A DNA stretch of 64,000 bases from Cystobacter ferrugineus (GTDB lineage: Bacteria; Myxococcota; Myxococcia; Myxococcales; Myxococcaceae): positions 124,001-188,000 of the forward strand of contig NZ_MPIN01000009.1 of NCBI RefSeq assembly GCF_001887355.1, given 5' to 3'. A program made the position numbers and the translations under genes. Position 1 is the stretch's first letter. Each line of letters begins with the position of its first letter. Positions 43,259-47,644 of the stretch are shown here, piece by piece. A model generated the notes under the pieces. That model searched no databases and had not been told where the DNA came from. It was given only the letters and a program-made list of their open reading frames with translations.

Positions 43259-44644
43259 TTGAAGCAAGGAAAGATCCTGGCGCTGGTGGGGGTGCTCGTC
43301 GTGGCTCCCATGGCGCTGGCGCAGGGGAGCAGCGGGAGCCCGAATCAGTCCGAGGGGAACACGGCCGCGCGGGCCCTCGAGGTGTACGAGCAGGGCAAGC
43401 GCCTCTACGACGCGAAGAACTACGCGGGCGCCCTCGAGCGCTTCGATCAGGCCGCGGCCATCGAGCCCGACAAGGCGCGCTGGCAGTACAACCGGGGCCT
43501 CGCCCTGCGCAAACTCAACCGCTTCGCGGAGGCCCGCGAGGCCCTGCTCCACTCGCGCACCCTGGACCCGGCCTACAAGCGGGCGGAGATCGACGACAAG
43601 CTGCGGGAGATGGGCTTCTCGCCAGCGGCACCGCTCATGAGCACGGAGACGCCACCCGGCCCCTCCACCTCCACGAGCACTCCCGACAGTCCTCCCACGA
43701 GCACGGAGACACCTCCCAGTCCGAACCCCACGCCCGCGCCAGACCCGAAGCGCACGGACTCGACGGGCGCCTGCTGCCTCCTCCTTTGCTTGATCGGCGG
43801 CGGTGCCCTCTTCGCCATGTGGCGGGCACGCAAGAACGCACCGACAACCGCGCCGCCCACGAAGCGCTATACATCCACCCTGCCCCGGGACGAGGAGATC
43901 GCACCGCTGCTCACCCGGCTGGACCAGGCCGCTGACGCCCTCATCCAGGTGGAGCACGCCCTGCGGCTGGATGAGGACGCCGATCTGCGCGCCCTGCTCA
44001 ACCAGGCCACCCTGGCCGAGCAGAACGCGCGGCAAGCACTGGAGAGCGCCCAGCGAGGCGTCGCCACGCTGGCCTCCGTGGAGCGCCGGATCAAGGAAAC
44101 GGAGGAGGGCACCGCGGCGGCGGTGGCGCGTGCGCGAGAACTTTTCGGCGAGCGGGCATTCCTGCCCGAGGGCGAGCACGTGGGCTGTTACTTCTGTGCG
44201 CGCCCCCTGGCCAACCCGTCCTTCCGGATGCAGGTGCCCCTCAAGCGGGGCTCGCAGGTCACGCACGTGCTCGCGTGCCCCCCGTGCGCGAACATGGCCG
44301 CAGCGGGCCAGCCTCCCCCCGTGAAGGTGCGGCGGTCGGTCACTGGCCTGACCCAGCACTGGAGCGAGGTGCGCGGGTACGATCCCTATACCCATCGTCA
44401 CCAGCCCCATCCGGACATGGGCACGATGCCCGCCTGGCAGTACACGCCGGAGCGCTCACTCGGCGAGGTGGCGGCGATGGCCGCGGGAGGCGCGCTCGCG
44501 ACGGGACTGGCGGCCTATGGGGTGAGCCAGTTGCTGGATCTCGACAGCGCGAGCGAGGCGGCGGCGGCCCAGGCGGCGACCGAGGCCGCGGCGAAGCGGG
44601 CCAGTGAGCACCGCGAGGAGCGCGACTGGAAGGATCACTCCTGA
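43259..44644 (+). CDS. TPR membrane protein with Cys-pair motif, first gene of a glycosyltransferase/radical SAM operon
   Basis: A TTG start at 43259 with GAGGGAG (43245-43251) gives 461 residues. A signal sequence is followed by two TPR-like repeats (about 35-110, ALEVYEQGKRLYDAKNYAGA), a Thr/Pro-rich linker, a membrane helix (GACCLLLCLIGGGALFAMW), a coiled coil, and CYFCARPL ... CPPCANM, a possible four-Cys zinc site. The C-terminus has another hydrophobic stretch. No known function. Its stop shares a base with the next start (TGATG), tying it to the glycosyltransferase. Confidence 0.7.
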   Translation: MKQGKILALVGVLVVAPMALAQGSSGSPNQSEGNTAARALEVYEQGKRLYDAKNYAGALERFDQAAAIEPDKARWQYNRGLALRKLNRFAEAREALLHSRTLDPAYKRAEIDDKLREMGFSPAAPLMSTETPPGPSTSTSTPDSPPTSTETPPSPNPTPAPDPKRTDSTGACCLLLCLIGGGALFAMWRARKNAPTTAPPTKRYTSTLPRDEEIAPLLTRLDQAADALIQVEHALRLDEDADLRALLNQATLAEQNARQALESAQRGVATLASVERRIKETEEGTAAAVARARELFGERAFLPEGEHVGCYFCARPLANPSFRMQVPLKRGSQVTHVLACPPCANMAAAGQPPPVKVRRSVTGLTQHWSEVRGYDPYTHRHQPHPDMGTMPAWQYTPERSLGEVAAMAAGGALATGLAAYGVSQLLDLDSASEAAAAQAATEAAAKRASEHREERDWKDHS

Positions 44645-45732
44645 TGGGCGCGCCCCGCTTCGTCTTCTACGCCGTCAATGGCCTGGGGCTGGGCCACGTC
44701 ACGCGCCTGGTGTCCATCGCCCGGGCGCTGCGCCGGCTCTCGCCGGAGTGCGAGGTGCTCTTCCTCACCTCGTCCGAGGCCGACCACGTCATCTACCGCG
44801 AGGGGTTCGCGGCGGTGAAGCTGCCCTCGAAAACCATCCGCGAGCGCTGTGGCCTGCGCAAGGGCCACTACCTCAAGCTGGTGCAGACGGTGACGTGGAA
44901 CACGATCTCCGCGTTCGATCCGGACGTGCTGGTGGTGGACACCTACCCCACTGGCTCCTTCGAGGAACTCATTCCGGTGCTGCGCTGGCGCCAGAAGAAC
45001 GTCTTCGTCTTCCGGGAGCAGCGGGCCGAGGCGGCGGGCTCCGAGCTGCTCCAGGCCTCGCTGCGGCTGTATGACCGGATCCTCATCCCCCACGAGGACG
45101 TGTCCCAGGTGGGTCCGCTGCCCGAGCCCGCCAAGGCCCTGGCCGTGGGCCCCATCCTCATCCGCGAGCGCCACGAGCTGCCAGACCGGGCCCGGGCACG
45201 CGAGGCGCTCGGGCTACCTCGGGACGGCACCCTGCTCTACGCCTCCTTCGGCGGCGGAGGAGACCCCGAGGCCGCCCGGGCACTGACGCTCACGGCCCAG
45301 GTGGCGCGGGAGCTGCCCGGGGTGCGACTGGTGGTGGGCGCGGGTCCCCTGTGGCGCGAGCAGCCGCCCGCGCTGGAGGGAGCGGTGGTGCTCCAGGGCC
45401 GCTACCCCGCGCTGGACTTCCTGCCGGCCTTCGACGCGGCGGTGACTGCGGCCGGCTACAACGCCGTCCACGAGTTGCTGTACGCGGGCATCCCCTCCGT
45501 CTTCGTGCCCTTCACGCGGATGGTGGACGACCAGGAGAAGCGCGTACGTGAGGTGGAGGACGCGGGGGCGGGCCTGGCGTGCCTGCCGCTGACGCGCGAG
45601 GGGCTCACCCGCGCGGTGCGTGAGCTGATGAAGCCGGAGGTGCGCCAGCGCCTGGGCACGGCGGCGCGCGAGAAGGTGGCGCGCAATGGCGCGGAGCCCG
45701 CGGCGCGGGCACTGCTGGAGTTGCTCCCATGA
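44644..45732 (+). CDS. MurG-like GT-B glycosyltransferase
   Basis: The 362-residue protein has the GT28-type two-domain layout. The N-terminal NGLGLGHVTR loop resembles the MurG glycine-rich acceptor loop, and the C-terminal domain has ASFGGGGDPEA and the donor-site block TAAGYNAVHELLYAGIPSVFVPF. It should transfer a sugar from a nucleotide donor to an unknown acceptor. It is not MurG itself: it is not among cell-wall genes, and the acceptor part differs. Stop and start overlaps (1 nt before, ATGA after) couple it to the TPR protein and to a radical SAM enzyme. Confidence 0.85.
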   Translation: MGAPRFVFYAVNGLGLGHVTRLVSIARALRRLSPECEVLFLTSSEADHVIYREGFAAVKLPSKTIRERCGLRKGHYLKLVQTVTWNTISAFDPDVLVVDTYPTGSFEELIPVLRWRQKNVFVFREQRAEAAGSELLQASLRLYDRILIPHEDVSQVGPLPEPAKALAVGPILIRERHELPDRARAREALGLPRDGTLLYASFGGGGDPEAARALTLTAQVARELPGVRLVVGAGPLWREQPPALEGAVVLQGRYPALDFLPAFDAAVTAAGYNAVHELLYAGIPSVFVPFTRMVDDQEKRVREVEDAGAGLACLPLTREGLTRAVRELMKPEVRQRLGTAAREKVARNGAEPAARALLELLP

Positions 45733-46769
45733 AGAACCCGACTCCGATGCGCGAGCGCCTCGAGGGCTACCTGGAGCGCCGGCCTCGCACCGGGCCGGAG
45801 ACGGTCCACCTGGACGTCACCAACGCGTGCAACCTGGACTGCATCACCTGCTGGAACTACGCGCCGGACCTCGCGCAGGCCAAACCGGTGGCGTGGAAGC
45901 GGCAACGGATGGACGCGGCCACCTTCCACCGCATGGTGCACGAGTGCGCCGAGGCGGGCGCCGAGCGCATCGTCATCAGCGGCGGTGGCGAGCCCTTCAC
46001 CCACCCGGACATCTACACCTTCATCGACGCGGTGAAGGCGCGCGGCCTGCGGCTCACCGTCATCTCCAACGGAACCCTGTGTGATTGGGAGCGGGTGCGC
46101 GGGCTGGGCGTGGATCAGATGCTGCTCAACATGGCCTCCGCCTCAGCGGAGACCTATGTCGCCTATCACCCCAACCAGCCCCCGGAGACCTTCCACCGGC
46201 TGCTCGAGGGCGTGCGCACGGTGCGCGACGTCACCGCCGTGAACCTGGTGCAGGTCATCAACCGGGTGAACTACCGGGAGCTGCCCCAGATGGTGCAGCT
46301 CGCGCACGACGTGGGCGCGCGCTCGTCCTTCAAGGTGGGAGACGTGCCTCGGGGCACCGAGCACCACGCGCTCACCGCCGAGCAGCGGCAGCAGGTGCTC
46401 GGCGAGCTCATCCCCGAGGCGCGCAAGCGGGCCAAGGCGCTGAAGGTGAAGCACAACCTGGACGCGTACGAGGCCCAGTTGTCGGGCAAGTGGCCCTCGG
46501 GGCAGGAGACGGGTTGCTTCGCGGGTTATCTCTACAGCCGCGTCTACGTGGACGGGCGCGTCTTCTTCTGCTGCGAGCACATCGAGGCGGGGCACGTGAA
46601 GGACGGTGCCTTCCAGGACGTGTGGCGCGCGCCAGCGTACGAGGCGGTGCGCGCGCGGCTGCACCGGGGCGAGTACTACCCGGGCTGCGCGCGCTGCGGA
46701 AAGCACGACATGAACTTCGCGGCGTCGAGGGACCTGCGCGAGATGCTCGAGGAGGGAGAGCAGCCATGA
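45729..46769 (+). CDS. Radical SAM/SPASM protein 1
   Basis: The 346-residue protein has the CxxxCxxC [4Fe-4S] motif Cys34-Cys38-Cys41 in TNACNLDCITCW and the radical SAM glycine-rich strand ISGGGEPFTHPD. A C-terminal SPASM region follows with further cysteines (GCFAGY, FFCCEH, PGCARCGKHD). SPASM enzymes modify peptides or small molecules by radical chemistry. No leader-peptide-binding (RRE) domain or precursor peptide is obvious. It overlaps both neighbours by ATGA, so the cluster is translated as a unit. Confidence 0.88.
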   Translation: MKNPTPMRERLEGYLERRPRTGPETVHLDVTNACNLDCITCWNYAPDLAQAKPVAWKRQRMDAATFHRMVHECAEAGAERIVISGGGEPFTHPDIYTFIDAVKARGLRLTVISNGTLCDWERVRGLGVDQMLLNMASASAETYVAYHPNQPPETFHRLLEGVRTVRDVTAVNLVQVINRVNYRELPQMVQLAHDVGARSSFKVGDVPRGTEHHALTAEQRQQVLGELIPEARKRAKALKVKHNLDAYEAQLSGKWPSGQETGCFAGYLYSRVYVDGRVFFCCEHIEAGHVKDGAFQDVWRAPAYEAVRARLHRGEYYPGCARCGKHDMNFAASRDLREMLEEGEQP

Positions 46770-47644
46770 GCGGCCCACGTCCCACGGTGAGCTGGAACAT
46801 CGTCGGCGGGTGCAACTACCGCTGCACGTATTGCGTGCAGAAGCACATGCCGGGCATTGGCGGGCCCACGGACGAGCAGCTCGAGGCGGCGTTGGCCACG
46901 CTCACGGCACTGCCAGGAAGCTGGGAGTTCAAGATCTCCGGCGGAGAGCCCTTCCTGCTCAAGCGGTTGCCGGAGGTGGCGCGGCGCCTGGCGGAGGCGG
47001 GACACAAGGTGTCGCTGCTCACCAACCTGTCGGCCCCGCTGCGCGTGATCTCCACCTTCATCGAGGCGGCGGGAGAGCGGTTGCGCACCTTCTCGTGCTC
47101 GCTGCACCGCGAGGAGGTGGAGGAAGCGGAGTTCCTCGAGAAGGCCCGCGCGGTGAAGGAGTTGCTGGCCCGGTGGCCGCGCGCCACCTTCGTCGTCAAC
47201 GGCGTGGTGGTGCCCGGACAGGTGCCAAAGGTGGCCGCCAGCCGCGAGCACTTCGAGCAGGCGGGCATCAAGTTCTACCCCCAGCTCATGCGGGTGAACG
47301 GCAAACCCGCCGAGTACGGCTGGTTGGATCGCTGGCGCATCGACCGGGCCTTCGGGGACATGGCGTCCCCGTCGCGGATGAATCGCGGCTACCAACTCAA
47401 GGGCCGCCTGTGCCACGCGGGCAGCCAGTACTTCATCATCCACCCCAAGGGGGACGCCTTCTCCTGCTACCCCGGCAAGCGCTTCGGAGATGGGCACCTG
47501 GGCAACGTCTTCGACGGGACGCTGAAGCTGTGGGACGCGCCCCGTCCCTGCCACTACGAGGTGTGCCCCTGCACGGTGCCGCAGAACCGGGGCATCATCG
47601 AGGGCTTTGGAGGCGGAGCCGGAGAGGACTCCGTCAGCTTCTGA
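46766..47644 (+). CDS. Radical SAM/SPASM protein 2
   Basis: The 292-residue protein has the cluster motif Cys16-Cys20-Cys23 in GGCNYRCTYCV, a glycine-rich KISGGEPFLL strand and a SPASM-like C-terminus (RLCHAGSQYF, DAFSCYPGKRF, RPCHYEVCPC). It differs enough from the preceding enzyme to suggest a different step, not a recent duplication. The start overlaps the previous stop by ATGA. It is the last gene of the cluster and abuts the convergent DUF808 gene by 3 bp. Confidence 0.88.
   Translation: MSGPRPTVSWNIVGGCNYRCTYCVQKHMPGIGGPTDEQLEAALATLTALPGSWEFKISGGEPFLLKRLPEVARRLAEAGHKVSLLTNLSAPLRVISTFIEAAGERLRTFSCSLHREEVEEAEFLEKARAVKELLARWPRATFVVNGVVVPGQVPKVAASREHFEQAGIKFYPQLMRVNGKPAEYGWLDRWRIDRAFGDMASPSRMNRGYQLKGRLCHAGSQYFIIHPKGDAFSCYPGKRFGDGHLGNVFDGTLKLWDAPRPCHYEVCPCTVPQNRGIIEGFGGGAGEDSVSF

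Follow-up and report, generated by a model that had tools for sequence, protein, structure and literature searches.

In mycofactocin biosynthesis, which is patchily distributed across phyla, the radical SAM/SPASM enzyme MftC and a glycosyltransferase mature the ribosomal precursor MftA, whose C-terminal residues are invariant (PMC3023750); oligoglycosylation is performed by the glycosyltransferase MftF (PMC7491314). A second point of reference is BtrN, a radical SAM enzyme that oxidises an aminocyclitol alcohol (PMC9012708; the twitch domain is used below as defined there). We analysed a window of 64,000 nucleotides, the whole stretch of DNA under study, from the 12.05 Mb genome of the myxobacterium Cystobacter ferrugineus, in which four forward-strand open reading frames, A, GT (gene B), C and D, form an overlapping series (43259-47644) whose logic, by analogy, resembles that of mycofactocin. 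The features referred to below are as follows.

43259-44644, + strand: gene A, 461 aa, TTG start, candidate substrate or carrier
43346-43609, + strand: TPR domain of A (aa 30-117), two TPRs by Pfam, predicted extracytoplasmic
43772-43837, + strand: transmembrane helix of A (aa 172-193)
44186-44287, + strand: two CxxC pairs of A (C310/C313 and C340/C343), Zn-ribbon-like, invariant in 18 homologs
44633-44641, + strand: Asp-His-Ser end of A (aa 459-461), where modification or recognition is proposed to take place
44642-44646, + strand: TGATG stop-start overlap of A and GT, -1 bp in 12 of 13 measurable relatives
44644-45732, + strand: gene B (GT), 362 aa, GT-B glycosyltransferase with a GT28/MurG-like C-terminal donor domain
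45729-45732, + strand: ATGA overlap of GT and C
45729-46769, + strand: gene C, 346 aa, radical SAM enzyme with a SPASM/twitch-type domain
46766-46769, + strand: ATGA overlap of C and D
46766-47644, + strand: gene D, 292 aa, radical SAM enzyme with five further conserved Cys residues

The three overlaps are those from which an earlier note on this DNA proposed that the genes probably make one product, and its identification of a TPR/CxxC membrane protein and a MurG-like glycosyltransferase is borne out by domain matches. The A protein comprises, in order, a signal peptide, the TPR domain, a linker, the transmembrane helix, a coiled coil, the Zn-ribbon-like CxxC...CxxC domain, a C-terminal helix and a tail, in which Asp459 and Ser461 are invariant and His460 nearly invariant in the homolog alignment. 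An AlphaFold2 model (pLDDT 80.8, pTM 0.54) follows this arrangement, from the TPR domain through the linker and transmembrane helix to a helical/Zn-ribbon domain and the C-terminal helix, with a weakly predicted tip; a structure search with A returned TPR matches only.

The GT sequence matches Pfam Glyco_tran_28_C in its C-terminal half (31.3 bits, cut-off 22), which corresponds to a donor-binding domain of the GT-B type (GT28/UDPGT-like) with conserved G/N/E/D/Q residues, and its N-terminus carries a distinct invariant YAVNGxGxGH motif; residues Gly13/Gly15/Gly17/His18 and Glu277/Asp295/Gln297 are invariant or nearly so. The radical SAM motif CxxxCxxC is invariant in C (Cys34, Cys38 and Cys41; 41/41 sequences) and in D (Cys16, Cys20 and Cys23; 59/59). 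Both enzymes had been taken for radical SAM/SPASM proteins, and the first half of that assignment stands. A full SPASM domain has about seven conserved C-terminal Cys residues for two auxiliary clusters, a twitch domain a single auxiliary cluster coordinated by about four Cys residues; C, which ends with one CxxC, has five (Cys263, Cys281, Cys282, Cys320 and Cys323), as does D (Cys216, Cys234, Cys262, Cys267 and Cys269), too few for two clusters, so that on their sequences the auxiliary domains look like twitch rather than full SPASM domains. Among PDB sequences, C is related to PqqE, BlsE and BtrN, and D to BlsE and to viperin-like proteins. Assignment to the anti-phage viperins (pVip) was rejected, with scores of 43.7 (C) and 41.4 bits (D) against a cut-off of 180 and partial PADLOC matches confined to the radical SAM core.

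Gene order and the gaps of -1/-4/-4 bp are kept in 11 of the 14 family relatives measured; two of the others are cut short by contig ends, and in the third A and GT are separated by +85 bp. The homologs are linked rather than scattered, and the same order recurs in Betaproteobacteria; together with the conserved overlaps, this excludes both of the outcomes that the earlier note had named as counting against a joint function, and the four genes constitute a conserved, co-inherited module. Upstream lies a gene for a BipA/TypA-like GTPase and downstream a gene on the opposite strand, but neighbours vary between genera while A, GT, C and D remain together, and since the flanking genes differ in relatives outside the genus, both lie outside the module. 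Of the 96 genomes of the family, 15 contain a strong homolog of C, as do four others in the phylum, and sampling of four other groups revealed a rare and patchy distribution (carriers in 7/297, 5/251, 2/292 and 1/300 genomes). No relatives were found among the viral contigs searched.

Searching 84,980 species genomes with a profile of C yielded 51 loci, which an all-against-all comparison of their open reading frames resolved into two architectures. Type I, A-GT-C-D, occurs in Myxococcaceae and Betaproteobacteria (Rhodoferax, Propionivibrio, Rhodocyclaceae). Type II has the order F6 (about 113 aa), CC (about 430 aa), a longer GT, C, D1, D2 and F4, and its hosts are other Myxococcota and genomes labelled Acidobacteriota, Cyanobacteriota, Armatimonadota, Spirochaetota, Planctomycetota and Chloroflexota, many of them metagenome-assembled, so that the phylum labels carry some risk of mis-binning. 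In most cases GT and C are accompanied by D; D was not found at the armatimonadote loci, where a tail-bearing protein, GT and C (with F4) therefore look like the minimum set. In the tree of C, Type I forms one clade (support 100/99), consistent with a single swap of the carrier protein. Sister to this clade is a C-like radical SAM protein (L062:9854-11008, identical to L023:8233-9387) with a large TPR protein encoded nearby; the approximately 21 kb read around it contained no A/CC, GT or D, and this locus was left out of account.

In Type II the place of A is taken by CC, a helical coiled-coil protein, which was absent from all five Type I genomes tested and has no detectable homology to A in an hhalign profile comparison (probability 0.6%). 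The AlphaFold2 model of one CC protein is helical and confident (mean pLDDT 93.7, pTM 0.78) except for its last 14 residues (408-421), which fall below 50; in the model this segment is disordered, and it ends in the invariant Ser. A structure search with CC gave no significant fold match. Neither Pfam nor NCBIfam has a family that CC, F4 or F6 matches, so this multi-phylum system is nameless in those libraries.

Three further observations concern the other Type II proteins. F4 (L091:12846-13304, L078:12898-13806 and 20 further Type II loci) is membrane-anchored, with a transmembrane segment and one or more copies of a small domain, KVNLY..NRLKIDLDRDDKWDEKW, which looks like a Ca-binding DxDxD loop. 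F6 (L065:6690-7031, L076:6673-7017 and others), of about 113 aa with a conserved LDGfDp.rRvGfEfiTtEAGDr segment, heads many Type II clusters. In Armatimonadota the divergent CC-GT and F4-C halves of the locus flank a gene for a conserved, lipoprotein-like product of about 590 aa (L125:6531-8330, L126:6452-8218), which lies next to F4 and C.

A and CC share the last three residues. A ends in D-[H/Q]-S in 19/19 homologs, and CC in Ser in 37/37 with Asp or Glu at position -3 in 36/37 (the exception, L080, has Asp at -4), tallies that include related sequences. By comparison, [DE]xS ends occur in 3 of 251 GT, C, D, F4 and F6 proteins of the same loci and, by subtraction, in about 5 of 319 called genes once A and CC are left out. 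The CC alignment has few invariant columns, the C-terminal Ser among them, and in 32 right-aligned CC tails positions -1 and -3 carry 4.32 and 3.58 bits, respectively, against 0.5-1.4 bits at the remaining 28 positions of the final 30. We considered whether the DHS end arises as an artefact of the gene overlap or of a Shine-Dalgarno sequence; this was ruled out, since the terminal Ser is encoded by TCC, TCG, TCA, TCT and AGC, all three stop codons are used, and the motif is kept at L052, L053, L059 and L061, at which A and GT are free of overlap; together these facts imply selection of the motif at the protein level. Two CC genes on contigs separate from C adjoin GT and end in TDFS and ADVS, whereas a divergent CC paralog in genome G106 (L150:3515-4807), with no GT or radical SAM gene within the 12 kb read, ends in DDDKKT and is a natural negative control, albeit a single case. 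The agreement between A and CC amounts to one independent coincidence, expected by chance at about 1-2%, and is strengthened by the invariance within each family and by the paralog.

Because A and CC are unrelated yet have in common a tail that is otherwise isolated, the simplest account is that the enzymes act on, or recognise, this tail. We consider it reasonably probable that the module is a dedicated post-translational modification system in which the acidic-x-Ser tail of the first protein is recognised and modified by the shared enzymes. Judged from sequence, the enzymes probably decorate the acidic-x-Ser tip of A and CC. The remark that no precursor peptide is visible thus overlooked the end of gene A, and the sugar-bearing peptide that had been suggested is plausible, its likely acceptor being not a missing small peptide but the [D/E]-x-Ser tail of the first protein. 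The TPR protein is indeed a membrane protein, but its invariant tail suggests that A is probably the substrate rather than an anchor or scaffold alone. Counting against this reading of the tail, in terms of access from the cytosol, a 32-residue helix and a second weakly hydrophobic stretch (aa 401-425) precede it in A.

In the proposed mechanism, the ribosomally made first protein (A here, CC in most other phyla) would be the substrate, and the MurG-like GT would attach a nucleotide-derived sugar to its terminal Ser. The twitch-type enzyme C, by its kinship to BtrN and PqqE, might then oxidise or otherwise remodel the sugar or the Ser, oxidation being proposed because BtrN oxidises a cyclitol alcohol (PMC9012708). 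A second radical step, presumably dispensable given the armatimonadote loci lacking D, could be performed by D, and in C. ferrugineus the product would stay on the TPR/transmembrane protein. More broadly, and as a possibility rather than an expectation, GT and radical SAM enzymes may constitute a cross-phylum system that equips large folded carriers with a group derived from a sugar, perhaps redox-active or cross-linking, on their very last Ser, with the carrier (TPR/membrane or coiled-coil) being swappable provided that it ends in acidic-x-Ser. No C-terminal serine is known to us to be glycosylated by such a system, and no description of the system or of a modification of the tip was found in the open-access literature.

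C-terminal tags often serve as docking motifs, and the acidic-x-Ser tail might only recruit the enzymes to a scaffold, in which case modification would take place elsewhere in A or CC or on another molecule. Further conserved, surface-like motifs do exist in both proteins, and candidate internal sites are the conserved His/Trp/Tyr/Asp segments HWSE..DPY..H and DFLWWDLMTDGR.DGNFI. These internal motifs differ between A and CC, however, leaving only the last three residues common to both, and the rest of the CC tail is unconserved; we judge a pure docking role unlikely.

More doubtful still is the proposal that the enzymatic product is a free modified sugar or a glycolipid, A or CC serving only to anchor or organise the enzymes. 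The GT28/MurG match of the GT and the relationship of C to BlsE and BtrN, which act on sugars or cyclitols, and of D to BlsE would suit such a product, but it would leave the invariant C-terminal tripeptide of two unrelated partners unexplained, and the loci contain no conserved gene for lipid or nucleotide-sugar biosynthesis. A conventional RiPP whose small precursor is encoded elsewhere or was missed has precedent in the small peptides that a radical SAM enzyme and a glycosyltransferase mature in mycofactocin (PMC3023750, PMC7491314), but is very improbable, as the overlapping Type I genes leave no space for a small open reading frame and the search for small conserved reading frames, suggested earlier, returned F6 at 14 loci but no other family of short proteins (at least 50 aa) linked to most clusters; nor did a small precursor of that minimum length turn up between the genes of Type II.

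If modification of the acidic-x-Ser tail is correct, maturation by radical SAM enzymes and glycosyltransferases extends beyond small peptides, since the end of a large structural protein can then be the "precursor", and searches for short precursor reading frames would miss such tails. An acidic-x-Ser end beside this GT and radical SAM enzyme is offered as a search rule, and the target peptide is directly testable.

The individual enzymes have characterised relatives in several systems. The GT is like MurG/GT28 and macrolide glycosyltransferases in its C-terminal nucleotide-sugar domain, but scores 44 bits against the MurG equivalog cut-off of 250. The best NCBIfam match of D, the STM4011-family radical SAM proteins, is likewise below cut-off (47 versus 200 bits) and differs in gene context. 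The radical SAM cores of C and D weakly match BlsE (E about 1e-7 to 1e-8), a cytosylglucuronate decarboxylase with a nucleoside-linked sugar substrate, whereas C reaches 50.5 bits against a family cut-off of 400. The C-terminal domain of C (residues 259-333) matches BtrN (E 4e-7) and has too few Cys residues for a second auxiliary cluster, a number compatible with the twitch dehydrogenases. The substrate of BtrN, in butirosin synthesis, is a free aminocyclitol, whereas C is longer and encoded beside a protein carrier.

With respect to mycofactocin, C scores 52.2 bits against the cut-off of 265 of the MftC family (TIGR03962), the conserved neighbours include no MftB, MftD or MftE homolog, and the screen of open reading frames of at least 50 aa gave no short precursor ending in Cys-Gly-Val-Tyr, the linked conserved proteins having 420-460 aa. 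The scores below the family cut-offs and the large folded carrier indicate that the module is not a member of the mycofactocin system. The GTs also differ, MftF being a group 2 (PF00535) enzyme and the present one a MurG-like GT-B protein. As in mycofactocin, an invariant ribosomal C-terminus, a glycosyltransferase and a PqqE-like radical SAM enzyme occur together in one cluster that is distributed patchily across phyla, but whereas MftA is a small peptide ending in Cys-Gly-Val-Tyr, the present C-terminus belongs to a folded carrier of 420-460 aa ending in [DE]-x-Ser.
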